Part shown: positions 1 through 45,009 of the stretch, in pieces
Layout of the letters: each line of letters opens with the position of its first letter
How positions within the stretch are numbered: position 1 is the stretch's first letter
Origin: Thermosipho sp. (in: thermotogales)
GTDB taxonomy: Bacteria; Thermotogota; Thermotogae; Thermotogales; Fervidobacteriaceae
DNA: 64,000 nt
Reading direction: 5' to 3'
NCBI GenBank assembly: GCA_017656335.1
Contig: JACDOA010000001.1
Coordinates: 310,001 to 374,000 of the forward strand
The notes under the pieces: model-generated
Seen by the model: only the letters and a program-made list of their open reading frames with translations
What the model was told of the DNA's origin: nothing
Database searches by the model: none
Made by a program: the position numbers and the translations under genes

Positions 1-797
1 GCATTTTCATCATTTTTTGCCATTTCTAAGGCTTCTTTCATGTTATTTGTGCCTAAATATGCAACAACACCACCTTTTCCTACAAACATCTTTTTTATTT
101 CTTTATGACTATACTTTCCAGAAAAACATAATTTTACAACATCACCTACAGGAAGCTCTCCCGTTCTTTCTGGACTAAATGGACCCTCATCATTAGCATT
201 ATTTACATCTATCATTTTCCCCTTCAAATGAGCAGTAACAGAAATACCTCCACCAAGATGGGCAACCACCATGTTGAGGTCTTCATATTTTTTACCTAAC
301 TCAGAAGCTACCTTTCTAGCAACAGCTTTTATATTCAATGCATGTGCAAGACTTAATCTTTCTATCTCTGGAATACCAGAAATTCTTGCTTCATCTATCA
401 TTTCATGTACTGAAACTGGATCGGTTATAAATACAGGGACTTTTCCATTTGACATTTCAAATCCAATTACTGCTGCAAGATTTGAAGCATGACTTACCTT
501 TGATTTATGTTTTAAATAATCAACCATCTCTTCATTAACCCTATAGGTTCCACTTTTTAATGGCGGTAAAATTCCTCCACGACAAGCTATAGCATCAAAA
601 TCCTCTAATTTGTATCCATATTCTTTCAAAAATTCAAAAATGGCTTTTTCTCTGTATTCTTTTTGCTTCATTAAAGAGTCAAATTTTTCCAAATCTTCTG
701 GAGGATGATGCAAGGTTTTTTGAATTTTTTTATTCTCATCCACAAAAATTGCCACCTTTGTACTTGTAGAACCTGGATTTATTACCAAAATTAACAC
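1..797 (-). CDS. buk: butyrate kinase (3' end outside window)
   Basis: Acetokinase/ASKHA-family kinase that makes butyryl phosphate (or a branched-chain acyl phosphate) from the acid and ATP, or the reverse in fermentation. Only the first 265 codons are present; the C-terminus lies before position 1. The protein opens with the phosphate-1 motif NPGSTSTK. Further on it has ACRGGILPPLKSGTY and the phosphate-2 motif VAHLGGGISV, all typical of Buk rather than AckA. Start is a GTG at 797, sharing one base with the TAG stop of the upstream aminotransferase, with AAGGGG upstream, so the two genes are probably translationally coupled. Butyrate versus branched-chain acid preference cannot be told from sequence. 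Confidence 0.92.
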   Translation of the reverse strand, partial: MLILVINPGSTSTKVAIFVDENKKIQKTLHHPPEDLEKFDSLMKQKEYREKAIFEFLKEYGYKLEDFDAIACRGGILPPLKSGTYRVNEEMVDYLKHKSKVSHASNLAAVIGFEMSNGKVPVFITDPVSVHEMIDEARISGIPEIERLSLAHALNIKAVARKVASELGKKYEDLNMVVAHLGGGISVTAHLKGKMIDVNNANDEGPFSPERTGELPVGDVVKLCFSGKYSHKEIKKMFVGKGGVVAYLGTNNMKEALEMAKNDEN

Positions 798-2032
798 TAT
801 ATCAACCCCTTGGATTTTCCATATGTAATTATTACCTCTTTTAATCTTTTAACACCTTCAATGATTTTTTCATGGGGTGGTAAACAGTAAGACATTCTCA
901 TTGAAGGAGATGGGCTATCATCTGGAGTAAATGCTTGTCCTGGAATGTAGAAAACTAATTTTTCCTTTGCAAATTCAAACATTTCCATAGTATCAAAACC
1001 TTCAGGCAATGTTACCCATGTAAATAATCCACCTTTAGGATTAATCCATTTAATTCCTTTTATATCTGAGAAATATTCATCAAAAGCTTTCATCATAGTA
1101 TCTTTTTTAGATTTATATAACTTTATTGTAGGTGTAATTTGTTGAATAAGGTCATATCTTTCCAAATATCTTGCTGCAATTCTCTGGGTTAAGGCAGAGC
1201 TACAAAGATCAGTTCCTTGTTTTGCCAAAACAAATTTTCTAACAATTTCTTTATCTCCTGCTACTGCTCCTATTCTCAATCCAGGAGCAAGAATTTTACT
1301 GAAAGTATTTAAAAGGACTACTCTTTCCATACCAGCAAGTTTAAAGAGGGAAGGAATATGTTCGCCTTCAAATCTTAATAATCCATATGGATCATCTTCT
1401 AAAATCAAAAGATCATATTTTTCGGCAAGTTCTATTATTCTCTTTCTTTTTTCTAATGAAAGTGTTACACCTGCAGGGTTATGAAAATTAGGTATAACAT
1501 AGATAAATTTTACTTTCTTAACTAAACCTTTGTTATCCAAATCTTTCAACTTTCTTTCCAAAATATCTACATTCATTCCATCATCTTCAATAGGAATAGT
1601 TATAAACTTTGACATTTGCATTTTAAAAGCACTGGCTGCTCCAAGATAAAATGGATTTTCCACAATAGCAATACTATCTTTATCTAGAAAGATTTTTCCA
1701 GCTAGTTCAAGAGCTTGTTGAGAACCCGTTGTAAACATAAAATTATCAACATCAAGATTTTTAATTCCGAAAATCTTATCAAATAAATTAACCATTTGTC
1801 TAGCTAATTCAGGATCACCTTCTGTGGTACTGTATTGAAGGACATAAGAATATTCTTTTTCAATAACTTCTGAAGCAATCCGAGCAAGCTCATTTCTAGG
1901 GAAAGTTTCAGGATCTGGAACACCACCACCAAAAGAGATAGAATTAGGTACGGAGGCGTACTTTAAAAGTTCTCTTATCAAAGACGAGCGCAAAGATTTA
2001 CCTAAAACCGAATATTTCTCCTCAAAATTCAT
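797..2032 (-). CDS. PLP-dependent class I/II aminotransferase (LysN/2-aminoadipate type)
   Basis: 411-aa fold-type I PLP enzyme transferring amino groups between an amino acid and a 2-oxo acid. The N-terminal SISFGGGVPDPETFP motif, TTGSQQAL, NPAGVTLS, LEDDPYG and the PLP-lysine motif NTFSKILAPGLRIG place it in the LysN / MocR-like catalytic domain group, without a DNA-binding domain. Full length for the family. ATG start at 2032 follows a GGAGGTGG ribosome-binding site. It is directly upstream of and coupled to butyrate kinase, suggesting a role in amino-acid fermentation (amino acid to 2-oxo acid to acyl phosphate). That role and the exact substrate are inference; aromatic or branched-chain amino acids are also possible. 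Confidence 0.9.
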   Translation of the reverse strand: MNFEEKYSVLGKSLRSSLIRELLKYASVPNSISFGGGVPDPETFPRNELARIASEVIEKEYSYVLQYSTTEGDPELARQMVNLFDKIFGIKNLDVDNFMFTTGSQQALELAGKIFLDKDSIAIVENPFYLGAASAFKMQMSKFITIPIEDDGMNVDILERKLKDLDNKGLVKKVKFIYVIPNFHNPAGVTLSLEKRKRIIELAEKYDLLILEDDPYGLLRFEGEHIPSLFKLAGMERVVLLNTFSKILAPGLRIGAVAGDKEIVRKFVLAKQGTDLCSSALTQRIAARYLERYDLIQQITPTIKLYKSKKDTMMKAFDEYFSDIKGIKWINPKGGLFTWVTLPEGFDTMEMFEFAKEKLVFYIPGQAFTPDDSPSPSMRMSYCLPPHEKIIEGVKRLKEVIITYGKSKGLI

Positions 2033-2336
2033 ATTTCCACCTCCAAATTTAACAAATATGTTATTTGTTATTATCTTCTAATCAAATTTGAAATTTTTTG
2101 CACATTGCAAAAAATTGCACGCAAAAAATTGCAAATTAATACAATTGAAAATATTCTATAATAAGTGTACAATAAATATGAGAAATAGTAAAACTTCAAA
2201 TTATAATGTTTTTTAGAAAAAATTCGCTTTATTAATCATTTATAATAAAAATTATTAAATTTCGGCATTTTATATTCCAGCGTTTTATTTTAAAATAATA
2301 AATGTAAAACATACCAAAAACTAGGAGGTGTATTAA
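2033..2336. other. 304-bp divergent intergenic region with repeats and promoter-like elements
   Basis: Separates the minus-strand aminotransferase/buk operon from the plus-strand aminotransferase/serA operon. No coding potential seen. It contains the 21-bp inverted repeat at 2050-2070, a tandem AAAAAATTGCA-like repeat at 2105-2134, and two TATAAT hexamers on the plus strand at 2157-2162 and 2241-2246. Neither hexamer has a convincing -35 at 17 bp. Promoters for both operons must lie here; I cannot assign them precisely. Confidence 0.5.
2050..2070. promoter_or_regulatory. operator-like inverted repeat in the leader of the aminotransferase-buk operon
   Basis: TAACAAAT and ATTTGTTA form perfect 8-bp arms around a 5-bp spacer, just upstream of the ribosome-binding site of the aminotransferase. 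Geometry fits a dimeric repressor site. No regulator gene is adjacent, so the protein that would bind is unknown. Confidence 0.4.
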
Positions 2337-3479
2337 ATGATTAAAAAGAACTATTTACTTGCCCCAGGTCCAACACCCGTACCTTCTGATATTCTACTAG
2401 AAGGAGCAAAAGAAACAATCCATCACAGAACACCACAATTTATTAGCATTCTTGAAGAAACCCTTGAAAATCTTAAATACTTATTCCAAACAAAAAATAG
2501 AGTATTTACTCTACTTTCATCTGGAACAGGGGCTCTTGAAGCTGCCGTTTCTAACCTTTTAAATCCTGGAGATAAAGCAATTATCGTAGAAGCTGGTAAA
2601 TTCGGTGAAAGATGGAGAGAAATCGCAGAAGCTTTTAATATTAATGTAGTTTCTTTAAAACTAGAATGGGGTGAAGCTGTAACTCCCGAACAAATAAAAG
2701 AAACAATTGAAAAACACCCCGATGCTAAAGCTGTTTTTACAACATATAGTGAAACCTCAACCGGAACAGTAATTGACCTTGAAGGAATTGCAAAAATTAC
2801 TCGTGACACTGACATTGTTTTGGTTACTGACGCTGTTAGCGCTTTGCTTGCAGAACCTTTAAAAATGGATGAATGGGGAATAGACGTCGTAGTAAGTGGT
2901 TCTCAAAAAGGAGTGATGCTCCCTCCTGGACTCGCATTCATCGCACTTAATGAAAAGGCTTGGAAATTAGTTGAAAATTCTAATAATTCCAAATATTATT
3001 TTGATTTAAAACAATACAACAAAAAATATCCTGATAATCCTTGGACACCTGGAGTAAACCTTATCTACATGCTTAGAAAAGCAATAAACATGATAAAAGA
3101 AGAAGGAATTGAAAACGTTTGGGAAAGGCACAAAGTTCTTGCTGATGCAACAAGAGCTGCAGTTAAAGCAATGGGGTTAGAATTGTTCTCTAAACGTCCA
3201 GGAAACGTTGCAACTGCAGTAAAAGTGCCAGAAGGCGTTGATGGAAATAAACTGACTAAAATTATGAGAGATAAATATGGAGTTACCATTGCCGGAGGAC
3301 AAGCACATCTTAAAGGAAAAATTTTCAGAATTTCTACATTAGGTTATCTCAGTATTTTTGACACAATTGTTGGGATTTCAGCTTTAGAATTTACATTGAA
3401 TGAGCTTGGTTACAAAGTCGAATTTGGAACTGGTGTTAAAGCAGCGCAGGAAGTGTTTTTCAAGGAGGTAAATAAATAA
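2337..3479 (+). CDS. class V aminotransferase (serine-pyruvate / alanine-glyoxylate / phosphoserine type)
   Basis: 380-aa PLP enzyme with the N-terminal [13 protein letters not shown] motif and HHRTPQF of the SPT/AGAT branch, and the PLP-lysine motif [17 protein letters not shown] start at 2337 after AGGAGGTG. It overlaps the next gene, a SerA-type dehydrogenase, by one base (TAATG). The pair therefore probably makes serine: SerA oxidises 3-phosphoglycerate and this enzyme aminates the product in place of a classical SerC. The family also includes alanine-glyoxylate and aspartate aminotransferases, so the in vivo amino donor is not certain. Confidence 0.9.
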
Positions 3480-4390
3480 TGAGAATTCATGTAAATGATC
3501 CTCTTGATAAACTTGCAATGGAAAAATTGAGATCTTCAGAATATGAGGTAACTGAAAACCACCTTGATAAAGACGAATTGATTAAAGAAATATCCAACAT
3601 TGATGTATTAGTTGTAAGAAGTGCTACAAAAGTTACTGCAGATATTATTGAAGCTGGGAAAAATTTAAAAATTATTGCTAGAGCCGGAACTGGATTAGAT
3701 AATGTCGATGTTGAAAAAGCTAAAGAAAAAGGAATAAAAGTATTAAATACACCCGGTGCTAACGGAATTTCTGTTGCTGAACTTACTATAGGATTAATGA
3801 TTTCATGTGCAAGACACATCGCCCAAGGGACTATTGATTTAAAGGAAGGAAAATGGACAAAAAAACAACTAAAAGGACATGAACTTTATAAAAGAACTGT
3901 TGGAATAATTGGTTTTGGAAATATTGGAAAAGAAGTTGCTAAAAGACTCTTGGCTTTTGAAATGAAAGTGCTTGCATACGATCCATTTGTAAAAGAAACA
4001 GAACTTGATGTTGAAATAGTTGATCTTGAAACAATCTTTAAGAAGTCCGACATTATAACTGTCCACGTTCCGTTAAATGAAAAAACAAAACATTTAATTG
4101 ATAAACATGCAATTGAAATGATGAAAGATGGAGTAATTATAATTAATGCTGCAAGAGGTGGAGTTGTTGATGAACAAGCATTATATGATGCTCTTGTTTC
4201 TGGGAAAGTATATGCAGCTGGTCTAGATGTTTTTGAAGTTGAACCACCTACTGATGAGCTAAGGGAAAAATTATTGGAATTACCCAATGTTGTTGCAACA
4301 CCTCATATAGGAGCCTCAACAGTAGAAGCACAACTGAGAGTTGGACAAATCATTGTAGAAAAAATCCTTGAAGAAATTAAAAAGTTATAA
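3479..4390 (+). CDS. serA: D-3-phosphoglycerate dehydrogenase, short form
   Basis: 303-aa NAD-dependent D-2-hydroxyacid dehydrogenase. The Rossmann motif GFGNIGKEVAKRL lies near residue 145, followed by RGGVVDEQALYDAL and GLDVFEVEPP, and the catalytic HIGAST near the C-terminus. It lacks the C-terminal ACT/regulatory domains of long SerA proteins, so feedback inhibition by serine through ACT is not expected. The ATG overlaps the stop of the class V aminotransferase, giving a two-gene serine biosynthesis operon ended by the terminator at 4417-4440. Other 2-hydroxyacid substrates are possible, but the neighbour supports 3-phosphoglycerate. Confidence 0.9.
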   Translation: MRIHVNDPLDKLAMEKLRSSEYEVTENHLDKDELIKEISNIDVLVVRSATKVTADIIEAGKNLKIIARAGTGLDNVDVEKAKEKGIKVLNTPGANGISVAELTIGLMISCARHIAQGTIDLKEGKWTKKQLKGHELYKRTVGIIGFGNIGKEVAKRLLAFEMKVLAYDPFVKETELDVEIVDLETIFKKSDIITVHVPLNEKTKHLIDKHAIEMMKDGVIIINAARGGVVDEQALYDALVSGKVYAAGLDVFEVEPPTDELREKLLELPNVVATPHIGASTVEAQLRVGQIIVEKILEEIKKL

Positions 4391-4416
4391 TAAACATTAG
4401 TAAAAATTATATAAAT

Positions 4417-4440
4417 AAAGCCCTCCGATTGGAGGGCTTT
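4417..4440. terminator. rho-independent terminator after serA (may also serve tRNA-Ala)
   Basis: Perfect 10-bp stem AAAGCCCTCC / GGAGGGCTTT around a GATT loop, followed by ATTTATT on the plus strand and TATTTAT on the minus strand. It lies between serA and the convergent tRNA-Ala gene. Confidence 0.85.
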
Positions 4441-4446
4441 ATTTAT

Positions 4447-4522
4447 TGGTGGAGCCGATGGGATTTGAACCCACGGCCTCTACCGTGCGAAGGTAGCGCT
4501 CTCCCATCTGAGCTACGGCCCC
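4447..4522 (-). tRNA. tRNA-Ala (anticodon CGC)
   Basis: Minus-strand 76-nt cloverleaf. Acceptor GGGGCCG pairs with CGGCTCC. The D arm contains TAGCTCAG, the anticodon loop TTCGCAC has CGC in the middle, the T loop is TTCAAAT, and CCA is encoded. It stands alone between serA and the YgeY-like gene. Confidence 0.95.
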
Positions 4523-4534
4523 ATTACAACTAAT

Positions 4535-4562
4535 AATTTAGCATAATATCTTCATTTGTCAA
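4535..4562 (-). promoter_or_regulatory. sigma-A promoter of tRNA-Ala
   Basis: On the minus strand TTGACA (4557-4562) is followed after 16 bp by TAAATT (4535-4540), which carries an extended TGC just upstream. The distance to the tRNA start at 4522 fits a short leader. Confidence 0.65.
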
Positions 4563-4651
4563 CAAAACTTTTAAACTTCCCAATATTTTAGTTTTTGTCA
4601 AATATTCTTTAAAATCGTTATTTTTTTTCTTTTTGTTTCATTTTTCATGTG

Positions 4652-4680
4652 TTTTTATTAGTTTTAAATAAAACTATAAT
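4652..4680 (+). promoter_or_regulatory. likely promoter of the ygeY-preA operon
   Basis: A perfect TATAAT at 4675-4680 lies about 28 bp upstream of the first start codon. The -35 region at 4652-4657 (TTTTTA) is weak. The 4523-4708 gap is otherwise T-rich with no gene. Confidence 0.4.
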
Positions 4681-4708
4681 ACAAACAAAAGATAAAGGAG
4701 GTGTTTCA

Positions 4709-5920
4709 ATGAATAAAGCTTTAGAATTTGCTTATAAATATCAAGACGATATTGTAAAGTTCATGAGTAAGCTTATAAAAGCAAAAAGTTATTCAGGAGA
4801 AGAAAAGGACGTTATTGAAGTTTTAAAGTTTGAAATGGAAAAAGTGGGATTTGATGAAGTTAAAATTGATGGTTTGGGAAACATAATAGGTAGAATAGGG
4901 AACGGCAAATACAAAATTGCAATGGATGCCCATATTGACACTGTAGATATTGGAAATGAAAAACTTTGGGAAAAAGATCCCTTCAGCGGGTATTATGATG
5001 ATAAATGGGTTTATGGTCGGGGAGCATCAGATCAAAAAGCCGGTATGTGCTCAATGGTTTATGGGACAAAAATTTTGAAAGATCTTGGCCTTTTAGATGA
5101 TTTTACACTTTATATAACCGGCACAGTTATGGAAGAAGATTGCGACGGACTTTGTTGGAGATATCTCATTGAAAAAGAAAATTTAAAACCTGATTTTGTT
5201 GTGATTACTGAGCCAACTTCGTTAAATATATACAGAGGCCATAGGGGAAGAATTGAATTTAGAATTAGAACCACAGGATTATCAGCTCATGCTAGTGCTC
5301 CCGAAAGAGGAATAAATGCAATTTACAAAATGGCAAAAATAATAAATGAAATTGAAAAATTAAACGATCGACTTAAAAGTGATTCTTTCCTTGGAAAAGG
5401 CACAATTGTTGTTTCACAGATTTTCTTTAAATCACCATCTCACAATGCTGTTCCAGATGAATGTGAAATTCAGATTGATAGAAGAATCACAGAAGGTGAA
5501 ACAAAAGAAACTGTTTTTGCTGAAATTAAAGATGTCTTTGAAAGAGCTGGCGTTGAAGATGCTGAAATTATTGAACTTGAATATAAAAAGCCTTCTTATA
5601 CTGGAGAAATTTTCCCTACTGAGAAATATTTCCCTGTTTGGAGTTTTCCAGAAGATAGCTTTATTGTTCAAGCAGCAAAAAAGAATTATATTGATGTTTT
5701 TGGAAAAGAGCCACTCATTGATAAATGGACTTTTTCCACCAATGGGACTGTCACAGCAGGTGTCTATGGAATTCCGACTGTAGGATTTGGACCAGGTGAA
5801 GAAAAATATGCTCATGCACCAAATGAAAAGGTTGAAATTGAACATCTTATTAAGGCTGCAGCTTTTTACGCAACATTTCCTAAAACAATTGTTAATCTTT
5901 TAAAAACAAGGAGGGGTTAA
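4709..5920 (+). CDS. YgeY-like M20 family metallopeptidase/amidohydrolase
   Basis: 403-aa M20 dizinc hydrolase. The metal and catalytic motif MDAHIDTVDIG is near residue 75, GRGASDQKAGMC follows, then MEEDCDG with the catalytic Glu, then a dimerisation domain with GLSAHAS. The C-terminal metal His is in GPGEEKYAHAPNE. Sequence and neighbourhood match YgeY, a predicted hydrolase in purine/ureide catabolic clusters. The open frame extends 20 codons further upstream, but the ATG at 4709 has AAAGGAGGTG at the right distance and is the likely start. First gene of a six-gene operon. The substrate is an N-acyl or N-carbamoyl amino compound by inference. Confidence 0.88.
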   Translation: MNKALEFAYKYQDDIVKFMSKLIKAKSYSGEEKDVIEVLKFEMEKVGFDEVKIDGLGNIIGRIGNGKYKIAMDAHIDTVDIGNEKLWEKDPFSGYYDDKWVYGRGASDQKAGMCSMVYGTKILKDLGLLDDFTLYITGTVMEEDCDGLCWRYLIEKENLKPDFVVITEPTSLNIYRGHRGRIEFRIRTTGLSAHASAPERGINAIYKMAKIINEIEKLNDRLKSDSFLGKGTIVVSQIFFKSPSHNAVPDECEIQIDRRITEGETKETVFAEIKDVFERAGVEDAEIIELEYKKPSYTGEIFPTEKYFPVWSFPEDSFIVQAAKKNYIDVFGKEPLIDKWTFSTNGTVTAGVYGIPTVGFGPGEEKYAHAPNEKVEIEHLIKAAAFYATFPKTIVNLLKTRRG

Positions 5921-5921
5921 G

Positions 5922-6911
5922 ATGTCTACATTTTTTAGAGGAAGACATTTTATAACAACACAAGATTTCACAAATGAAGAAATTGAACTTATGTTAGATC
6001 TTGCAAGAGATCTGAAAATTAAGTTCAGTCATGGGGAACCTACTCCATATCTCTTATATAAAACCCTGTTCTTAATTTTCTTTGATGAAAGCACTAGAAC
6101 AAGAAATAGTATGCAAGCAGGAATTGCACAATTAGGTGGAACTGGAATTTTCTTAACACCAGATAAGATGCAAATAGCTCACGGTGAGGTTGCTAAGGAT
6201 ACAGGAATAATTCTTTCGAGATTTGGTGATGGTATCGGAATTAGATTCTGTAAGTTTGGCGAAGGTAATAAATATTTAAATGAAATGGCAAGACATTCAA
6301 AAGCTCCAGTTATGAATTTGCAAGATGATGTTTACCATCCTTTCCAAGTAATGGCTGACCTTATGACAATTCAGGAAAGGTTTGGGAAAAATCTAAGAGG
6401 TCTTAAAGTCGGAATTAGCTGGGCATATGCAGAAAGTCATTTAAAACCATTATCCGTTCCACAATCTCAAATACTGTTGTTTACCAGATTTGGTATGGAT
6501 GTAACTTTAGCATATCCTGAAGGATTTGACCTTATGCCAGATATTGTTGAACAGGCAAAGAAAAATGCTGAAATGTATGGTGGTAAACTAGAGATTTCTC
6601 ACAAAATGGAAGATGCTTTTGTCGATGCCGATATTGTTATTCCCAAAAACTGGGGTGGTTTCTTTGTTTCAGATAATCCTGATGAAATCAGAGCAGAACA
6701 GGCAAAGCATAAAAACTGGATATGTACTGAAGAATTAATGAAATTAACTAAAAAACATTCAATTTACATGCACGCACTTCCTGCAGACAGAGGGAAAGAA
6801 GTCGTTAATAGTGTAATTGATGGCCCTCATTCTGTTGTATACGACGAGGCAGAAAATAGATTACATACAGCTAAATCAATAATGACATTACTTATGGGAG
6901 GAAGATTTTAA
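5922..6911 (+). CDS. YgeW-like carbamoyltransferase
   Basis: 329-aa member of the aspartate/ornithine carbamoyltransferase superfamily. The carbamoyl-phosphate site DESTRTRNSMQAGIAQLGG lies near residue 60 and the HPFQVMADLMTI motif near 140. The HALPAD region near 286 is followed by RGKEVVNSVIDG. These match the YgeW branch, whose natural substrate is unsettled, rather than ArgF or PyrB. The family could work in the degradative direction, releasing carbamoyl phosphate from a ureido compound. Start at 5922, 1 bp after the M20 gene, with GGAGGGG upstream. Confidence 0.85.
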   Translation: MSTFFRGRHFITTQDFTNEEIELMLDLARDLKIKFSHGEPTPYLLYKTLFLIFFDESTRTRNSMQAGIAQLGGTGIFLTPDKMQIAHGEVAKDTGIILSRFGDGIGIRFCKFGEGNKYLNEMARHSKAPVMNLQDDVYHPFQVMADLMTIQERFGKNLRGLKVGISWAYAESHLKPLSVPQSQILLFTRFGMDVTLAYPEGFDLMPDIVEQAKKNAEMYGGKLEISHKMEDAFVDADIVIPKNWGGFFVSDNPDEIRAEQAKHKNWICTEELMKLTKKHSIYMHALPADRGKEVVNSVIDGPHSVVYDEAENRLHTAKSIMTLLMGGRF

Positions 6912-6913
6912 AA

Positions 6914-8209
6914 ATGTATGATCTAGGTATTTTAAATGGAAAGTTGTATTTGGATGGAATTTTTATAAATGCAAATGTATATGTAAAATCCGGAAAAATC
7001 GTAGATATCTCCACAAATTATTTGCAGTGTAAAAAAGAAGTAGATGCAACCGGGAAGTTTGTTCTTCCCGGTTTTATTGATCCACATGTTCATTTTGAAC
7101 TAAACTCGGGAAAATATACCTCAGTAGATGATTTTGAAAGTGGAAGTATTTCCGCATTATTTGGTGGGGTTACAACAATTATTGATTTTTTAGATCCCAT
7201 TTCGAAACTAGAAGAATTAGAATATGCTTTTAAAAATCGTTTGTTTTCTGCTAAAAAATCATACGTTGATTATTCTTTTCACACTACTTTGGGAAATTTT
7301 AGTGGTGATTTAAGTGCTTTATTTAAAGAAATAAAGGAATTTGGCACAAAATCAGTAAAGGTTTTTACTGCTTATTCTTCAAGTAACCGAAGAACAAATG
7401 ATAAATTAATGTTTGAATTGTTTAAATTGTCAAAGATACATAAAATTCCAATTTTAATTCACGCTGAAAATGAAGATATGATCGTTGAAAATGTTCCAAT
7501 AAAAATGCACTCAAAGGCAAGACCTGAAATTTCTGAGATTTCCGAAATAATAAAGATTGCTGAATTTTTAAACCAAACAAAAGGAACTGCATATATTGTG
7601 CACACAACATGTGGAACCTCGATAGAAGAAGTAAAAAATAGATTTGATAATATTTTAAACAACAACTTATTCTTCGAAAGTTGCCCCCATTATTTTTATT
7701 TTGATGACAGTGTGTATGAAACTCAAAGTGGATATCTGTATGCAATGACTCCACCGCTTAGAAGCAGACGTGAAAAAGAAAAACTAAAAAATAACATTGA
7801 TAAGGTTTTTTCAATTGGAACTGACCATTGCTCATTTAATAAAAAGGATAAACGTAAAAGAAAAACGGGAAATCTTCCAATGGGAATTGGTGGAATTGAA
7901 CACTCTTTTGTTTTAACCTATTCTTTATTTGGCAAGAAAATAATTGAAAAATTCACAATAAATCCCGCAAAATTTTTTGGACTTTATCCACAAAAAGGAA
8001 CTTTATTACCCGGGGCAGATGCTGATATTGTAATATTTGATCCAAATTATAAAGGTATAATAAAAGAATCACATACTAAATCTGACTATGATCTATATCT
8101 GGGTATTCAAATAAAGGGAAAGATCGAAAAAGTATTTAAAAATGGAGCTTTAATAATTGAAGATGACAAATTAGTTAGAAAAAATAAAGGTAATTTTATC
8201 AGGAGGTAG
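6914..8209 (+). CDS. dihydropyrimidinase/hydantoinase-like amidohydrolase
   Basis: 431-aa cyclic amidohydrolase that would hydrate a ring such as a hydantoin or dihydropyrimidine to a carbamoyl amino acid. All expected metal ligands are visible: H58 and H60 (GFIDPHVHFE), carboxylated K149 (SVKVFTAY), H183 (LIHAEN), H230 (YIVHTTCG) and D304 (IGTDHCSF). Somewhat shorter than typical D-hydantoinases. It starts 2 bp after YgeW and its product would be a plausible substrate for the YgeY or YgeW neighbours. A perfect terminator-like hairpin lies inside codons 45-54 (see 7048-7077). Confidence 0.88.
   Translation: MYDLGILNGKLYLDGIFINANVYVKSGKIVDISTNYLQCKKEVDATGKFVLPGFIDPHVHFELNSGKYTSVDDFESGSISALFGGVTTIIDFLDPISKLEELEYAFKNRLFSAKKSYVDYSFHTTLGNFSGDLSALFKEIKEFGTKSVKVFTAYSSSNRRTNDKLMFELFKLSKIHKIPILIHAENEDMIVENVPIKMHSKARPEISEISEIIKIAEFLNQTKGTAYIVHTTCGTSIEEVKNRFDNILNNNLFFESCPHYFYFDDSVYETQSGYLYAMTPPLRSRREKEKLKNNIDKVFSIGTDHCSFNKKDKRKRKTGNLPMGIGGIEHSFVLTYSLFGKKIIEKFTINPAKFFGLYPQKGTLLPGADADIVIFDPNYKGIIKESHTKSDYDLYLGIQIKGKIEKVFKNGALIIEDDKLVRKNKGNFIRR
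7048..7077 (+). other. intragenic terminator-like hairpin in hydantoinase gene
   Basis: Perfect 10-bp inverted repeat AACCGGGAAG (7048-7057) and CTTCCCGGTT (7064-7073) around TTTGTT, followed by TTAT. It lies within the codons for TGKFVLPGF next to the metal-binding HxH. The codons used (ACC, GGG, CCC) are uncommon in the surrounding genes. Confidence 0.6.
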
Positions 8210-8213
8210 TAAT

Positions 8214-9497
8214 ATGAAAGCAATAATAAATGCAAATATTTTTGACTATGAGAATTATTTTGAAAATTACTATATACTTTTTGACAATAAAATAGAAGAA
8301 ATTGGGCCAATGGAAAGTTTTAAAGGAGCATCTCAGATAATTGATGCTAAAAAAAATCTTGTTTTACCTGGTTTTGCAGTTGGACACACTCATATTTACT
8401 CAACCTTTGCCAGAGGTTTAAATCTCCCTTTTAACCCATTGAATTTTAAAGATATACTAAATCAACTTTGGTGGAAACTCGATTCTAAATTAGGTGAAAG
8501 GGAAAATTATTACAGTGCTTTAATCTCCGGAATTGAGTTTATTAAAAATGGTGTCACAACGGTGATAGACCATCATGCAAGTGAACTCCAAATTAAAGGA
8601 AGTTTAAAAACACTTAAAAATGCTTTATGTGATGAAATTGGTTTAAGAGGTATTTTTTGCTTTGAAACAAGCGATAGATTTAACATTGATGAATGCATAG
8701 AAGAAAATTTAGATTTTTTAAGTACTCGTTCTGAAATGCACGCAGGAATTTTTGGCCTTCATGCTTCATTGAGTTTATCCGATGATACTTTGGAAAAAAT
8801 ATCCAAATTGTACAAAGGCCCAATTCACATTCATACTGCTGAAAGTATAGATGATGTTGAAGATTCTTTATCAAAATACGGTATGAGAGTTATAACACGA
8901 TTGGATAAATTTGGACTTCTAAGGGAAAATTCTATTCTTGCACATTGTGTTCATGCTTCAGAAGATGAATTGAATTTAATTTCCAAAAACAACTGCTATG
9001 TTGCATTAAACGTTTCTTCTAATATGAATAATGCAGTTGGTTTACCAAATTATAGAATGATGAAAAAACATAATGTAAAAGTAATAGCTGGAAATGATGG
9101 ACTTGGATTTAATTTTGCAAGAGAGCTTTTGAATTTATACTTTTCATTAAAATTAAAAGGAAAATCTCCAGTTTCATTTTCTCCAGATAATTTAAAACAT
9201 ATAATCAAAAATACATATGAAATTGCAAGTTATCATTTAAATACTAATTTAGGAAAAATTGAATCTGGATTTGCGGCTGACCTTCTAATAGTTCCATATA
9301 CTCCTCCAACTCCGTTAAATAATGAAAATATCCTTGGACATGTAATATATGGTCTATACGATAATTTCAGACCATCTCACGTTATTGTCAACGGAAAATT
9401 ATTAATGGAAAATTATGAAATTAATCTACCAGTATCTGAAATCTACGATGAAGCAAGAAAGGTAGCCCAAAATTTCTGGGAAAAACTTAAGGAGTGA
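8214..9497 (+). CDS. ssnA: SsnA-like aminohydrolase
   Basis: 427-aa amidohydrolase-superfamily enzyme related to SsnA, guanine deaminase and TrzN/AtzA-type deaminases. Metal ligands are H58 and H60 (GFAVGHTHIYSTFARG), the central IHIHTAES, LAHCVHAS, and Asp in AGNDGLGFNF. SsnA typically sits in purine/ureide and selenium-associated catabolic clusters with ygeW, ygeY and hyuA, exactly as here. RBS GGAGG precedes the ATG at 8214. The substrate is not established; deamination or ring opening of a purine-derived heterocycle is inferred. Confidence 0.85.
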   Translation: MKAIINANIFDYENYFENYYILFDNKIEEIGPMESFKGASQIIDAKKNLVLPGFAVGHTHIYSTFARGLNLPFNPLNFKDILNQLWWKLDSKLGERENYYSALISGIEFIKNGVTTVIDHHASELQIKGSLKTLKNALCDEIGLRGIFCFETSDRFNIDECIEENLDFLSTRSEMHAGIFGLHASLSLSDDTLEKISKLYKGPIHIHTAESIDDVEDSLSKYGMRVITRLDKFGLLRENSILAHCVHASEDELNLISKNNCYVALNVSSNMNNAVGLPNYRMMKKHNVKVIAGNDGLGFNFARELLNLYFSLKLKGKSPVSFSPDNLKHIIKNTYEIASYHLNTNLGKIESGFAADLLIVPYTPPTPLNNENILGHVIYGLYDNFRPSHVIVNGKLLMENYEINLPVSEIYDEARKVAQNFWEKLKE

Positions 9498-9501
9498 TAA
9501 T

Positions 9502-10779
9502 ATGAGTATAAAAAAGTTTTTACTTTTTAACCTTTTCTTCTTTTCACCGATGTTTTCAATGATAACATTTGCAGGTCAACAAGATAGAATTTTTATCTAC
9601 AGAAATACCAGTTTATTAAAATTGCGTGTTCCATTAACTGAAAAATATGTTCTTCCTCTTGATAATAACGAATATGTAGTATTTGTTGAAAAAGCTGATC
9701 ATTACAAAATTGAAAAATCAACTCTGGATGACTTGGAGTTTAATTTAATTGGGACAAATGAAATGTTTGCAAAAAGATTCGATATGGCAAATACAAAGAT
9801 TTTAAGTAAAAAACCTCCTATTTTAAAAATCTCAAATAAAATCTATTATTTTGATATCAATACTGGTTTTTGGTATGAAACAGATGAAAAAAATCTTGAT
9901 ATTCTTTTAAACTCAAAAAAATTGGTTGCAAAAAATATTGAAGGAGACATTTTAATTACAAAACCTTTGGAATGGGATTTATTCTACGATTTAAAGTCAA
10001 ACGGAGATTTATATTTAACATACTTAATCAGAGGAAAAACAAACAAAAGTGTTGATGCACTATTAATTGATGGTGAACTTGATTTTGATGTAGAAGAGCC
10101 TTTAGAAGATGTGTACCAAGATGTAATCGTTAATTATTCTAAAAGCATGGAACAACTTCCAGAAAGAAAATACACACCTGAAATTATTTCAGAAACAGCT
10201 GTCATTGATATTGGAGAAATCCAACCTTTTAATGGTAATTTTGAAAAAGTAATCAAAGTTGGAACAATAAAGGAAATGAAAGACATCCCAACTTTAGATT
10301 TACATTTTTATACAAGTTCATTTGAAAATAGATTTTTGGAAATCTATAGGGTATTTGAAAACTCAAAAGAAAATGGCGTTGGTGTTCCACTTATTTCTGG
10401 AGATGTTCGAATATACGAAAATAAAAATAACGAAGAATTTTTAAGGCAAACAACAAATTTACCTAAAACTAATGTTGGAGAAATTTGTAAAATCGATCTT
10501 GGCCAGGGTTGGTCAGTATCTGCAGATTTGAACATCACTCATAGTTATAAATCAGAAACATACATTAGTAGAAGTTTTGAAATTAACCTAACTAACGATG
10601 ATGATAAAGAAAAAGAAATTTTAATTTCATTTTATACATATGAAACCAGTATAGATTTATTAAAATATGAAACGGATTTGGAAGTAACTGAAAAAAAGAT
10701 ATTTAAAGACAGAATTGAATTTTACCTAAAGATTAAAGATTCTGGGGTTTTAAATATATCACTTAGATCTAATAAATAA
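9502..10779 (+). CDS. secreted protein of unknown function with DUF4139-like C-terminal part
   Basis: 425 aa, not recognised with confidence. Residues 1-24 look like a signal peptide (KKFLLFNLFFFSPMFSMITFAG), so it is probably periplasmic. No transmembrane segment or cysteine-rich motif follows. Residues of about 290-345 include GVPLISGDVRIYENK and LGQGWSVSADL, resembling the DUF4139 pattern (a short 'vRVYE' strand followed by a 'geaFdv' strand). It starts 4 bp after ssnA and 18 bp before the PreA-like gene, so it is co-transcribed with a catabolic operon. It could help bind or process the operon's substrate, but nothing in the sequence proves that. Confidence 0.75.
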   Translation: MSIKKFLLFNLFFFSPMFSMITFAGQQDRIFIYRNTSLLKLRVPLTEKYVLPLDNNEYVVFVEKADHYKIEKSTLDDLEFNLIGTNEMFAKRFDMANTKILSKKPPILKISNKIYYFDINTGFWYETDEKNLDILLNSKKLVAKNIEGDILITKPLEWDLFYDLKSNGDLYLTYLIRGKTNKSVDALLIDGELDFDVEEPLEDVYQDVIVNYSKSMEQLPERKYTPEIISETAVIDIGEIQPFNGNFEKVIKVGTIKEMKDIPTLDLHFYTSSFENRFLEIYRVFENSKENGVGVPLISGDVRIYENKNNEEFLRQTTNLPKTNVGEICKIDLGQGWSVSADLNITHSYKSETYISRSFEINLTNDDDKEKEILISFYTYETSIDLLKYETDLEVTEKKIFKDRIEFYLKIKDSGVLNISLRSNK

Positions 10780-10797
10780 CAAAAAGGGGGAATTTAA

Positions 10798-11880
10798 ATG
10801 GATTTATCAACTAAAATATCTGGAATACCTCTTGAAAATCCTGTTATGCCAGCTTCTGGACCTCTTGTTGGAGACTATGGAAAAATAAAATTTGTTGATT
10901 CATCAGGTGTTGGAGGAATAGTTACAAAGACTATTTCAACAAAAGCTGCAGAAGTACCAAGACCCTGTATTTACGGTGAAAATAATTTTGCAATGAATGC
11001 AGAGCTTTGGTCTGAACTTCCTCCAGAAAAATGGATTGATGAGATTCTTCCAAAATTAAAACAAGAACTTAAAAAACCTCTCATTGTAAGTGCTGGATAC
11101 TCTAAAGAAGATATGGAAATTCTCATACCAAAGCTTGATGAATTTGCAGATGCCTTTGAAATCTCAACACATTATGTTGGAAAAAGCTACGATACTATTG
11201 GAGAAATTGTAAAAACAATAAGAAAACATACAAAAAAACCTATTTTTATGAAATTGAGTCCCCATATTCCAGACCCTATTGAATTTACAAAAGTAGCACT
11301 AGAAAATGGTGCTAATGGTATCGTTGCAATAAACTCATTAGGTCCTACAATGAAGATAGATATTAAAAATAGAAAGGTTTTAATAGGTAATGAAAAAGGA
11401 CAGGTCTGGCTTTCAGGTCCAGCCATTAAACCTCTTGCACTTGCAATAGTAAAGATGCTCAGGGAGGCATTCCCAGATATTACCATCATCGGCGTTGGAG
11501 GAATAAAAACAGCTGATGATGTTATTGAATTTTTACTTGCTGGTGCAGATGCTGTACAACTTTTATCTTCAGCTTTGATATTTGGTAAAGATATATACGA
11601 AAGAATAATTAAAGATTTACCCAAAAAACTCGAAAAATATGGATTTAGTAGTATTGAAGAAGTTAAAAAGACTAAACTTGGAATTCCTGATGTTAAATAT
11701 ACTCCCAATCATCCCATTGTTGACCATGAAAAATGTACTTTGTGTAGGATATGTGAAAATGTATGTCCATATTTTGCAATCACAATAGATACAAAAGTTA
11801 ATGTTGATGTAAATAAATGTTTTGGTTGTGGTTTATGCGAAAGCCGGTGTCCAGTAAAAGCAATTTCAGGTGTTCTTTGA
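10798..11880 (+). CDS. PreA-like dihydropyrimidine/dihydroorotate dehydrogenase with two 4Fe-4S clusters
   Basis: 360-aa FMN TIM-barrel protein of the DHOD class 1 / DPD PreA family, fused to a C-terminal 2x[4Fe-4S] ferredoxin domain (CTLCRICENVCP and CFGCGLCESRCP). FMN phosphate-binding features such as GVGGIKTADDVIEFLLAGADAVQ are intact. The loop that in PreA and DHOD reads NxSCPx and carries the catalytic Cys here reads EISTHYVGKS, so the usual base is missing. Last gene of the operon; its RBS is AAAGGGGG. It may reduce or oxidise a cyclic ureide upstream of the hydantoinase, but altered chemistry is possible. Confidence 0.85.
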   Translation: MDLSTKISGIPLENPVMPASGPLVGDYGKIKFVDSSGVGGIVTKTISTKAAEVPRPCIYGENNFAMNAELWSELPPEKWIDEILPKLKQELKKPLIVSAGYSKEDMEILIPKLDEFADAFEISTHYVGKSYDTIGEIVKTIRKHTKKPIFMKLSPHIPDPIEFTKVALENGANGIVAINSLGPTMKIDIKNRKVLIGNEKGQVWLSGPAIKPLALAIVKMLREAFPDITIIGVGGIKTADDVIEFLLAGADAVQLLSSALIFGKDIYERIIKDLPKKLEKYGFSSIEEVKKTKLGIPDVKYTPNHPIVDHEKCTLCRICENVCPYFAITIDTKVNVDVNKCFGCGLCESRCPVKAISGVL

Positions 11881-11937
11881 TAAATAAATATTAATCAAAA
11901 AATATAGAAATTTTTACAGTAATAAATTCCAAATATA

Positions 11938-11966
11938 TTGACACAAAAATTTGCATATGCTATAAT
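11938..11966 (+). promoter_or_regulatory. consensus sigma-A promoter of the tRNA cluster
   Basis: TTGACA (11938-11943), 17-bp spacer, TATAAT (11961-11966), with an extended TGC immediately before the -10. Both hexamers are perfect. Transcription would begin about 10-13 bp upstream of tRNA-Pro. Confidence 0.92.
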
Positions 11967-11985
11967 TAATCACGGTTTGATTCTT

Positions 11986-12062
11986 CGGGGCGTAGCGCAG
12001 TCGGCTAGCGCGCCTGTCTTGGGAACAGGAGGTCGCTGGTTCAAGTCCAGTCGCCCCGACCA
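11986..12062 (+). tRNA. tRNA-Pro (anticodon TGG)
   Basis: 77-nt cloverleaf with acceptor CGGGGCG / CGCCCCG and anticodon stem CCTGT / ACAGG around loop CTTGGGA, which contains TGG. T loop TTCAAGT, encoded CCA. First gene of a five-tRNA cluster. Confidence 0.95.
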
Positions 12063-12064
12063 AT

Positions 12065-12141
<77 letters not shown>

Positions 12142-12142
12142 T

Positions 12143-12219
12143 GCGCCCGTAGCTCAATAGGATAGAGCACCGGACTTCTAATCCGGGGGTTGTGGGTTCG
12201 ACTCCCGCCGGGCGCGCCA
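12143..12219 (+). tRNA. tRNA-Arg (anticodon TCT)
   Basis: 77-nt cloverleaf with acceptor GCGCCCG / CGGGCGC, discriminator G and anticodon loop CTTCTAA (TCT), reading AGA, by far the commonest Arg codon in the window. Encoded CCA. It has the same acceptor stem as the second tRNA-Arg at 12339. Confidence 0.95.
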
Positions 12220-12244
12220 AATTAAATAAATAATGATTATTTGT

Positions 12245-12321
12245 GGTGGCTATAGCTCAGCTGGTAGAGCGCCTGACTGTGGATCAGGTGGTCGTGGGTT
12301 CAAATCCCACTAGCCACCCCA
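12245..12321 (+). tRNA. tRNA-His (anticodon GTG)
   Basis: Cloverleaf with acceptor GTGGCTA / TAGCCAC and anticodon loop CTGTGGA (GTG). The histidine-specific extra G(-1) is encoded at 12245 and faces C73. Encoded CCA. Confidence 0.94.
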
Positions 12322-12338
12322 TTTTTGTTATGGAATAC

Positions 12339-12415
12339 GCGCCCGTAGCTCAACAGGATAGAGCGTCGGACTTCGGATCCGATGGTTGCGGGTTCAAGTC
12401 CTGCCGGGCGCGCCA
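12339..12415 (+). tRNA. tRNA-Arg (anticodon TCG)
   Basis: 77-nt cloverleaf with acceptor GCGCCCG / CGGGCGC, anticodon loop CTTCGGA (TCG), encoded CCA. Very similar to tRNA-Arg(TCT), suggesting duplication and anticodon divergence. Reads CGN codons, which are rare in the neighbouring genes. Confidence 0.94.
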
Positions 12416-12483
12416 TAGTTTTATAGCCCTACTCTTAGCTCTAGTATATTTTTTACTAACATCATAGTAAAGGAGGTTTTATC

Positions 12484-12747
12484 ATGGAAGTACTTAAAGT
12501 TGCATCAGGTTCCAATCCTAACAAAGTTGCAGGTGCTTTAGCAGGGGTAATTAGAGAAAAAGGTAAAGCAGAAGTCCAAGCAATAGGTGCTGGCGCTGTA
12601 AATCAAGCTGTCAAGGCAATTGCAATTGCTAGGGGTTATCTCGCACCAAGTGGTATTGATCTTGTATGTGTTCCTGCTTTCACAGATGTAAACATTGAAA
12701 ATGAATCAAGAACTGCATTAAAATTTATTGTTTTTCCAAGAGAATAA
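12484..12747 (+). CDS. spoVS: stage V sporulation protein S homologue
   Basis: 87-aa Alba-like nucleic-acid-binding protein of the SpoVS family, recognisable from VLKVASGSNPNKVAGALAG and GAGAVNQAVKAIAIARGYL. In Bacillus SpoVS affects sporulation and septation; the homologue in non-spore-forming Thermotogota probably has a general nucleic-acid role. ATG at 12484 after AAAGGAGG. It follows the tRNA cluster by about 70 bp without an obvious terminator between, so some read-through transcription from the tRNA promoter is plausible. A strong hairpin terminator follows. Confidence 0.95.
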   Translation: MEVLKVASGSNPNKVAGALAGVIREKGKAEVQAIGAGAVNQAVKAIAIARGYLAPSGIDLVCVPAFTDVNIENESRTALKFIVFPRE

Positions 12748-12771
12748 CTAATCAAAAATTACCAAATTAGT

Positions 12772-12797
12772 AAGCCCGGTCTTTAAAGACCGGGCTT
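12772..12797. terminator. bidirectional terminator between spoVS and nucleotidase gene
   Basis: Perfect 26-bp palindrome with arms AAGCCCGGTCTTT and AAAGACCGGGCTT, followed by TT on the plus strand and preceded by an A-rich stretch. It lies between convergent genes. Confidence 0.85.
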
Positions 12798-12824
12798 TTG
12801 ATTTCTATATATTTTTCCTATTAA

Positions 12825-14864
12825 TTATTTTTTTACCATTTTTATATCATCAAAGTATATTGTTGTTGGTTTATCAAGAGCTAAATTAAAACTAAAGTTT
12901 ACAACTTCATCTGCATCTTCTGGATGTTCATATTCATATGTAAATGTTTGCCAATCCGTGGTAAGATCGAATGTTAAAATATATGGTTCTGGTAAATATG
13001 ACATCCAAGGATCATGATTTTGTGCAATATTTAACCAAATTTTTCTTGGTACATCTGCCTTTGCTTTAAATGATATTTCATATGTGGCTCCTTGTTCCAA
13101 TTTAAGCCATTGATTAAATTGAATATGCCAAGTTTCTCCACCAGGATATTTAACTTTAAAATATGCATAACCATCCTTTACTCCATATTCTGAAACTTTT
13201 GCATTGCTTATGTCATAATCACTTGCTTGCCAAATCCACCATTTATATGGGTTTTCTGGATCATTTGCAATGAGTTCATCAAATGAGCCGTTGTTTATAA
13301 CATTTTTTGCTTCTTCCTTCATCCTTACATATCTTAGTGTATCATCATAGCTTTCAATTTTTCCTTTCAATCCCTTTTGGATATATTCCACAACAACATC
13401 TGCCAAAACAAAACCGGTATCATAACCAGAATCTTTATGTTCGGCTAGAACTGAATATCCATCTCCTCCACCAGCCATGTAATTATTAGTAGCTACAACA
13501 TAAACTTTTTCTGGATCAAGCGGTTCTCCATTTACTAATACTTCAGTTACTTTTCCGCCCACACTTTTCCAGGTTAATCCACCAACATGTAACCATGCAC
13601 CTTTTCCTTCTTCAAGTGTTGCTGCATATTCTAAAACTTTTAATAAATCAGAACCTTTTAATTTTAGTACATAAACGGTGTTACCAAATGGTAAAACTGT
13701 TAATATATCTCTAATTGTTATCTTTCCAGGTTGTATTGATGCTCTAATTCCTCCACCATTTTGAAGTGCTATATCTGCTCCTGTTTTCCAAATCATAGCA
13801 TCTGTAATTAAATGTCCAAGATTTGTATCTCCAGATCTCACATGAGCCCTTTCTCCATCAAGTAAAATTTTTGTTTCACCAATTACTGTATCTAATTTTT
13901 CTGATCCCATTTTCTTAAATACATCAAGAGGTACTTTTACATATAAAGCTTCTTTGTAGGGGTTTCCAACATATTCGTATATATCTTTACCATTTTCATC
14001 TTTACCCTTATATACCTTTAAATTAACTGGAATAGGTATCCAACTCCATTTTTCGATTTTTCCATTTTCAACATCAAGTGTTAACTTTCCAGCTACTTTT
14101 CCCCATTCCCAGGCTTGGACAACTATTGTATTATTAATAACTTTTGCTTCTTCTAATTTCGTATGACTATGCCCATCTATAATTACGTCTATTCCATCCA
14201 CTGCCTGTGCTAACTGCTCAGAAGTTGTATAATCTCCTGCATGTTCCATACCCATACCAAGATGAGTAAGTGCAATTACAACATCAGCCTGTTCTCTTAA
14301 TTTAGGAACTAATTCTTTTGCCACATCAATAGCGTTTCTAAATTCTAAATCAGAACTAAAAAGAGGTTCTAGAATAGCAGTTTCCTCTGTTGTTAAACCA
14401 AAAATGGCAACTTTTATCCCACCTACATTTTTGATGATATATGGTGTAAAGAATGGCTTTCCATCTTTATAAATATTTGCTGACAAAAATGGAAATTTTG
14501 CAACACTCATTTGATATTCTAAAACTGATCTTTCTTTATCAAATTCGTGATTTCCAACTGCCATAGCATCGAGTTTCATTCTATTGAGTGCAAAAATGTC
14601 CGGTAACGCATTTAAAAGATCAGATTCTGGTACACCAGTGTTAATATCACCTGCATGTAAAAACAAAACATTTGGATTAACAGCTCTTTCTTCATCAATT
14701 ATAGAAGCAATTACTGCAAAACCACCAATATCAGGGTTATGATATTCACTAAACGACCAAGCATGACCATGAGTATCATTAATGTGGAAAATAGTAACCT
14801 CTGTTGCAAAAAGACTAATAGCTAATAAAAGCATGAAAAATAATACCAATTTAACCTTACGCAT
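12825..14864 (-). CDS. secreted 5'-nucleotidase/UshA-type phosphoesterase with C-terminal carbohydrate-binding module
   Basis: 679 aa. Residues 1-20 are a signal peptide. The metallophosphoesterase domain (about 22-300) has FHINDTHGH (D30, H32), HAGDINTG, GNHEFD, THLGMG and DGHSHT. A 5'-nucleotidase C-terminal domain (about 325-510) contains NGGGIRASI and NYMAGGGDGY. Residues of about 520-679 begin NNGSFDE and end in an IYFDDIKMVKK strand, resembling CBM4/9-type modules. It would dephosphorylate nucleotides or sugar nucleotides outside the membrane. Fusion to a carbohydrate-binding module is unusual and suggests anchoring to polysaccharide or to a glycosylated substrate. RBS GGGGAGGTG. Confidence 0.88.
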   Translation of the reverse strand: MRKVKLVLFFMLLLAISLFATEVTIFHINDTHGHAWSFSEYHNPDIGGFAVIASIIDEERAVNPNVLFLHAGDINTGVPESDLLNALPDIFALNRMKLDAMAVGNHEFDKERSVLEYQMSVAKFPFLSANIYKDGKPFFTPYIIKNVGGIKVAIFGLTTEETAILEPLFSSDLEFRNAIDVAKELVPKLREQADVVIALTHLGMGMEHAGDYTTSEQLAQAVDGIDVIIDGHSHTKLEEAKVINNTIVVQAWEWGKVAGKLTLDVENGKIEKWSWIPIPVNLKVYKGKDENGKDIYEYVGNPYKEALYVKVPLDVFKKMGSEKLDTVIGETKILLDGERAHVRSGDTNLGHLITDAMIWKTGADIALQNGGGIRASIQPGKITIRDILTVLPFGNTVYVLKLKGSDLLKVLEYAATLEEGKGAWLHVGGLTWKSVGGKVTEVLVNGEPLDPEKVYVVATNNYMAGGGDGYSVLAEHKDSGYDTGFVLADVVVEYIQKGLKGKIESYDDTLRYVRMKEEAKNVINNGSFDELIANDPENPYKWWIWQASDYDISNAKVSEYGVKDGYAYFKVKYPGGETWHIQFNQWLKLEQGATYEISFKAKADVPRKIWLNIAQNHDPWMSYLPEPYILTFDLTTDWQTFTYEYEHPEDADEVVNFSFNLALDKPTTIYFDDIKMVKK

Positions 14865-14890
14865 ACAAACACCTCCCCTTTGTTATAATA

Positions 14891-44349: not shown

Positions 44350-45009
44350 ATGGAACATAGGCTAGAGGGCCTTACTAGATCTGTTGTTGGTAAGAAGAGA
44401 GCTGTTAGAAGGCTCAGAAAACAAGGTTTTGTGCCTGGTGTAGTATATGGCCCAGATATTGAACCACTTTCTATTTCCATTAAAAAAACAGATTTATTAA
44501 AACTTCTTCATGAAGTAACAGAATCCAGTGTTATAAAGCTCACAGTAAAAGACGAAAATGGAAAAGAAGTTTTGTCTCATGACGTTTTTATTAAAAACGT
44601 TCAATATGACAAGTTAACTGATGAAGTAAGACATATTGACTTTTATGTTCCTGAAAAAGGGCACAAAATGTCAATCAATATTCCAATTGAATTTACTGGT
44701 AAACCAATTGGACTTGAAAAAGGTGGAGTTCTTGAAATAATTCATCATGAATTACCAGTTGAAACTCTTCCTTCAGTTGTAGTTGAAAAATTTGAAATTG
44801 ATATTTCAAATCTTGAATTAGGAGAATCAATACATGTTGGTGATTTAAAACTTCCTGAAGGAATGACAACAGAACTTCCAGAAGATGAACCTCTTGTATC
44901 TGTTGCAGCCCCTCGAGGTCTTGAGGTTGAAGAAGAAACTGCTGAAACTGAAGAAGAAGAAAGTGTAGAACCTGAAGTTATTGAAAAAGGAAAAAAGGAG
45001 GAAGAATAA
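44350..45009 (+). CDS. rplY: 50S ribosomal protein L25 (TL5/CTC type)
   Basis: 219 aa. The N-terminal L25 domain binding 5S rRNA (about 1-90) includes [20 protein letters not shown] and PGVVYGP. The TL5 C-terminal beta domain (about 95-185) has [15 protein letters not shown] very acidic tail follows. ATG at 44350 after AAAGGAGG. Its 3' end overlaps the possible TTG start of pth. Confidence 0.95.

Follow-up and report, generated by a model that had tools for sequence, protein, structure and literature searches.

A conserved terminator-like hairpin written in the synonymous codons of a Thermosipho hydantoinase gene: a candidate intra-operon polarity element

Can a bacterial enzyme gene carry, in its choice of synonymous codons, an RNA element acting on the operon around it? 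The question is raised by a hydantoinase/dihydropyrimidinase-like amidohydrolase gene (hyd) of a Thermosipho species. The gene lies in a 64,000-nt stretch of genomic DNA (hereafter the window) and is third in an operon of the order ygeY-OTC/ygeW-hyd-ssnA-(x)-preA (Table 1). A sequence-only reading of the window had reported a perfect 10-bp hairpin with a 6-nt loop and a T-rich tail inside hyd, had argued that conservation of the protein is not enough to account for it, and had proposed partial termination with attenuation of the distal operon; absence of the stem from orthologues was to count against it. The hairpin is present as described at 7048–7073 (+), reading AACCGGGAAG-TTTGTT-CTTCCCGGTT, then TTATTGATCC, and begins at nt 134 of the gene. 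Its codons, GCA ACC GGG AAG TTT GTT CTT CCC GGT TTT ATT GAT, correspond to ATGKFVLPGFID (motif ATGKFVLPGFIDPHVH), with the stem codons immediately 5′ of the PHVH metal motif.

Table 1 Positions, in the window, of the hyd hairpin and of the operon genes around it
Feature	Position	Strand	Remarks
YgeY-like hydrolase, first gene of conserved operon	4649..5920	+	
Ornithine-carbamoyltransferase (OTC)/YgeW-like gene, directly upstream of hyd	5922..6911	+	stop 2 nt before hyd start and 136 nt before the hairpin
Hydantoinase/dihydropyrimidinase-like amidohydrolase gene (hyd)	6914..8209	+	TIGR02033 1.8e-85 (below cut-off); PF01979
Hairpin, 5′ arm AACCGGGAAG	7048..7057	+	codons A ACC GGG AAG
Hairpin, loop TTTGTT, 6 nt	7058..7063	+	varies freely among orthologues except two hydrophobic residues coded
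Hairpin, 3′ arm CTTCCCGGTT	7064..7073	+	codons CTT CCC GGT T
U-rich tail TTTTATT	7072..7078	+	from Gly-Phe-Ile codons; kept in 13/15 hairpin-bearing orthologues
SsnA-like aminohydrolase, downstream of hairpin	8214..9497	+	
425-aa protein	9502..10779	+	Pfam/NCBIfam: no match; present in some relatives only
PyrD/PreA-like dihydroorotate/dihydropyrimidine dehydrogenase, last operon gene	10798..11880	+	

The predicted fold has a free energy of −18.5 kcal/mol (z = −3.5; 0 of 200 dinucleotide shuffles equally stable), and the 8-bp G+C-rich core of the stem one of −13.9 kcal/mol. The terminator score of 14.5 falls in the range of the intergenic terminators in the window, and the U-tract after the stem is interrupted (TTTTATTG). 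A generic terminator scan of 16 kb gave 9 sites against 8.0 expected, which is unremarkable taken alone, so that the case for the hairpin rests on conservation instead. Several familiar identities could be set aside. An Rfam search of positions 1–16000 at gathering score returned tRNAs only, leaving the hairpin without a match to a known RNA family. A bacterial SECIS element, suggested by the selenium-linked gene names, was rejected on the grounds that no in-frame UGA occurs upstream of the stem within hyd. The pattern CCGGGAAG(N3-9)CTTCCCGG occurs once in the 1.79-Mb genome, at the hyd hairpin, and this single copy disposes of a repeated DNA element, an uptake sequence or a multi-site operator.

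The protein motif allows the stem without forcing one. A Thr-Gly-Lys and a Leu-Pro-Gly stretch can be written in codons that exactly reverse-complement each other (ACC/GGT, GGG/CCC, AAG/CTT), hence the motif permits a stem. When the protein was kept fixed and codons were drawn from the gene's own usage (n = 500), a stem of 10 bp arose in none of the re-sampled hyd genes and an equally good fold in 0.2%; p was ≤ 0.004 for every hairpin-bearing gene tested. The stem is written in codons that are minority choices in these genes (CCC 18%, CTT 22%, GGG 13%, AAG 17%), yet they are invariant across two families, and stem windows rank first of 433 for synonymous constraint within hyd. Between the families the stem codons reach 89% identity, with 39% expected. 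Elsewhere in the gene synonymous sites are saturated: for f1 versus g20, codons at shared residues agree in 52.7% of cases, with 50.7% expected. The view of the sequence-only reading that the protein alone is not the source of the stem thus agrees with both re-sampling and synonymous constraint. Its observation that the equivalent ssnA motif lacks a hairpin was likewise borne out (codons AAT CTT GTT TTA CCT GGT). On re-sampling together with the comparison of orthologues, a chance or protein-forced stem was rejected.

For that comparison 103 Thermotogota genomes were searched for the hyd protein. Far from being absent in orthologues, the stem is preserved under extreme synonymous constraint in 15 Thermotogota genes (own included) from two families, the orthologous proteins being about 53–80% identical. 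Seven f1 genes (own included) have the CCGGGAAG/CTTCCCGG stem and one pairable outer position. All seven genes of family f9 (genus g20, proteins about 53–56% identical to the Thermosipho hydantoinase) share this 8-bp core and add one inner pair, in a 9-bp hairpin with a 4-nt loop. The outermost f1 pair reads ACC/GGT, GCC/GGC, TCC/GGA or, with a wobble, TCC/GGG; it is pairable every time, the first stem codon alternating between Thr, Ala and Ser while the Gly codon changes in step. Loops vary freely, as does the Ile codon of the tail. In L009 (genome G006) Arg-Glu-Lys replaces Thr-Gly-Lys, and still a perfect 10-bp stem is found (CCAGGGAGAA-GTGGG-TTCTCCCTGG), shifted in register by 1–2 nt (stem p = 0.002 by codon re-sampling). 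A shifted stem made from different residues favours selection on structure over an inherited word; a dif-like recombination site was rejected on the same difference in stem sequence, and because the hairpin follows the gene. In a formal covariation test the score was reached by 24 of 500 shuffles with a single variable pairable column, a comparison that is weak column by column since 8 of the 10 stem pairs never vary. A d'Aubenton-Carafa-type terminator score is positive in 13 of the 15 hairpin-bearing orthologues; in L003 and L007 the stem persists but the U-tract is poor (scores −4 and −6). A conserved extension of the lower stem past a 1×1 mismatch was also considered and rejected. It occurs in several f1 genes, is weak or absent in f9, and is probably a by-product of Asp/Asn and Ile-Asp codons.

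The hairpin-bearing genes examined with their flanks all lie in the ygeY-OTC/ygeW-hyd-ssnA-(x)-pyrD/preA operon (at L087, no preA homologue is among those listed after ssnA). Members of f3 are without such a stem, and at the two f3 loci whose flanks were examined the neighbouring genes are different. Families f3, f5 and f11, and also G010, have orthologues of the same fold but no hairpin, and G010 and G100 have the operon without it. On the protein tree, the distribution needs at least three changes, e.g. one old origin and later losses. Within the operon, the 425-aa protein is 41–56% identical to its matches in relatives' operons. The OTC/YgeW-like protein is 98% identical to those of G012, G007 and G001, compared with about 79% for the adjoining hydantoinase, as if the two halves of the operon were under different demands.

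To place the hairpin in its genomic context, a terminator score was computed at every T-run inside ORFs over 829 kb of the Thermosipho genome (C1 and C2:1-360000). Sense sites scoring >0 numbered 13, each ending within 180 nt of an ORF start, with about 3 of these (341570, 148557, 321757) probably upstream of the true start codon; the remaining coding sequence (779 kb surveyed) held none. Six sites without start-proximal placement were found in the antisense control, and codon shuffling produced about 0.5 sites per shuffle (four shuffles, 0 to 1 each). Leaving those three aside, the sites include hyd, pth, recG, a flgA-like gene, a ZIP transporter, an ABC ATPase, a family-4 glycosyltransferase, a Mrp/NADH-dehydrogenase-type membrane subunit and a PAS/sigma-54 regulator. 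The tail starts with TT in 9 of 11 5′-proximal hairpins. In hyd, pth, the flgA-like gene and recG, the four genes examined for conservation of the stem, a Phe codon directly 3′ of the stem supplies the sense-side U-tract (4 of 4), a pattern partly ascertained as two of the four were chosen for their tails. A first count, of perfect stems of at least 9 bp in conserved coding sequence, gave a 5′ enrichment of 6 versus 0.9 in G000 and little enrichment, 2 versus 0.4, in G006. The G006 survey covered 1.22 Mb, outside which its hyd and pth genes fall, and placed 2 of 17 raw sites within conserved coding sequence, so that the size of the class beyond the Thermosipho genome is uncertain. We suggest tentatively that terminators embedded in coding sequence are a class in use among Thermosipho-type Thermotogota: strong sense-strand hairpins, codon-written in the first 60–180 nt of downstream genes, often with a Phe-codon U-tract, where operons are tightly packed (hyd, pth, flgA-like, recG and others).

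Individual members of the survey deserve description. In pth (peptidyl-tRNA hydrolase, ORF 44981-45559) the hairpin at 45043-45075 (+), CCCACGTTATGCC-TTTACAC-GGCATAACGTGGG followed by TTTTATGTTTC, is stronger than that of hyd. Its stem, mostly 13–16 bp, is kept in f1, f2 and f3 with variable loops and is absent in genera g2 and g3, whose protein motif differs. The pth start at about 45012 (+) seems to be AUA. Relatives L096-L099, L101, L103 and L104 are alike, with AUU in L103 and L104. From the upstream stop codon, apparently that of L25, to the conserved GLGNPG motif there is no in-frame ATG, GTG or TTG, and a good Shine-Dalgarno sequence precedes the apparent AUA/AUU start. Such a conserved non-canonical start would suggest weak or autoregulated translation. 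The flgA-like gene (G000 C2:34918-35835 (-), L246) has an 11-12-bp stem at about nt 83, then TTTTTGAT, with several compensatory changes among four congeneric species (L246; L247-L249). In recG (G000 C1:229759-232083 (-), L226), ATCCTGAAG...CTTCAGGAT and then TTTTTAT are found at about nt 124. The stem, or 8 bp of it, is kept around a 9-11-nt loop, and its codons are mostly identical in six genomes of two genera (L226; L227-L231). An APS-kinase-like gene (ORF 48974-49468) holds a 10-bp hairpin, GAGAGGATAC/GTATCCTCTC, at 49145-49173 (+), nt 171, and its G006 match (33.9% identical) has no stem.

Taken together, the hyd hairpin is most likely an intra-operon 3′-end (polarity) element in coding sequence and probably a partial intrinsic terminator. 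On balance we lean towards a cis-acting, terminator-type RNA hairpin that lowers expression of the distal genes and is kept through synonymous codons. The G+C-rich stem would fold as RNA polymerase passes the start of hyd and, together with the U-rich stretch from the Gly-Phe-Ile codons, would end part of the transcripts 140–170 nt past the upstream stop, leaving more ygeY and OTC/ygeW message than hyd, ssnA and preA message. Intrinsic terminators have stems of at least about 7–8 bp and a short loop, and the hyd stem has 10 bp and a 6-nt loop. The perfect, G+C-rich stem is shared with these terminators and so, less clearly, is the U-rich stretch behind it; the hyd hairpin differs in lying wholly inside an ORF, in its interrupted U-tract and in the weakness of that tract in two orthologues. 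Against termination count the weak U-tracts of L003 and L007, the freely varying Ile codon of the tail and the hairpin-free operons of G010 and G100; a ribosome following closely would also melt the stem. Still, a terminator may be workable inside a coding region when, as here, the site lies within the first 160 nt of the gene, near the start codon, and the leading ribosome is often not yet there. An intrinsic terminator placed early in an ORF works efficiently, even in E. coli (Li et al. 2015, as cited in PMC7858274); Thermotogota are classed among the runaway-transcription phyla (PMC13323073). Operon position, the sense-side U-tract, the start-proximal class and these published facts fit partial termination inside the operon. 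In the literature searched no paper joins Thermosipho with hydantoinase, and the text of a T. maritima transcriptome paper (PMC3636130) contains neither 'intragenic' nor 'peptidyl-tRNA'.

The attenuation proposed in the sequence-only reading is plausible insofar as the operon, the position, the positive scores in 13 of 15 genes and the genome-wide class all suit a lowered distal expression; its ligand-switched form fared less well. The codons around the stem displayed no conserved antiterminator pairing, and synonymous constraint peaks at the stem codons themselves. With no conserved alternative pairing, classical ligand-switched attenuation is unsupported and a fixed polarity element fits better. 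A trp-type leader attenuator is similar in having a terminator-like hairpin, which could be modulated by translation. The hyd hairpin, by comparison, lies inside a structural gene, with no leader peptide and no constrained alternative pairing seen.

The main rival is an exonuclease-blocking hairpin of the galE/galT type. In E. coli, the 3′ end of galE mRNA is formed within galT, ~120 nt beyond the galE stop: Rho terminates or RNase E cleaves the transcript, and a hairpin with an 8-bp stem and a 4-nt loop then blocks the exonucleases (PMC11925234). Both systems have a small-loop hairpin of 8-10 bp early in the coding sequence of the following operon gene, ~120–160 nt past the upstream stop. The hyd hairpin lies 137–162 nt beyond the OTC/ygeW stop at 6911, where the galE-type position is ~100–160 nt, and the f9 form comes close in shape with its 9 bp and 4-nt loop. 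Applied to Thermosipho, the hairpin would not itself terminate. It would halt exonucleases after the message had ended or been cut further downstream, by the action of Rho or of an endonuclease, for instance RNase Y (genes for both are present in the genome), and so stabilise the upstream mRNA. Such protection would also explain L003 and L007, where the stem stands without a good U-tract. What speaks against it is the tail. In E. coli the end is made by Rho and RNase E and the hairpin only protects, whereas the Thermosipho hairpin has a U-rich tail suggesting intrinsic termination and is conserved across families by codon choice. Behind the stem, 13 of the 15 orthologues have a U-tract, as most of the surveyed hairpins have a tail starting with TT, and all seven f9 genes code Gly as GGT even though GGA is commoner and would add one pair, as if a U were wanted. 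We regard protection as rather unlikely. Protection and termination share their outcome, polarity, and differ in how the end is made.

A translational role is much less probable. A stem just 5′ of the metal-binding HxH codons, with constraint on the stem only, could act as a speed bump that slows the ribosome where the N-terminal strand domain passes into the metal-binding barrel, aiding folding or metal loading; however, the same-fold orthologues of f3, f5, f11 and G010 manage without it, the hairpin tracks the operon rather than the protein, and genes for unrelated proteins have hairpins like it, always close to their starts. Even less credit can be given to a DNA palindrome bound by a regulator, as roadblock or operator. 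A 10-bp inverted repeat around a 6-bp centre does resemble a dimer site, but there is a single copy in the genome, and the shifted L009 stem, with another sequence and the same pairing, suits structure over a fixed binding site. Least probable of all is that the TGK..LPG motif happens by coincidence to use self-complementary codons, which reverse complementarity would permit and the re-sampling of every tested gene, along with minor codons invariant across two families, opposes.

In terms of known biology, the hyd hairpin thus appears to be a variant of intra-operon 3′-end/polarity hairpins, written in synonymous codons. A further parallel is provided by the ioTTS of the archaeon Methanococcus maripaludis, where transcripts end inside ribosomal-protein operons and distal expression is lowered (PMC10450193); the L25-pth case of Thermosipho may be compared. 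Those sites were mapped by transcriptomics and are not described as conserved coding-embedded stems (PMC10450193). The hyd gene would add an RNA element, probably regulatory, that a bacterial enzyme gene carries in its synonymous codons and that is kept across families. This bears on the unequal expression of neighbours in compact operons, and on whether transcription in Thermotogota outruns translation enough for intragenic terminators. If the broader class holds true, coding-embedded terminators would set unequal expression within operons that have no intergenic space.
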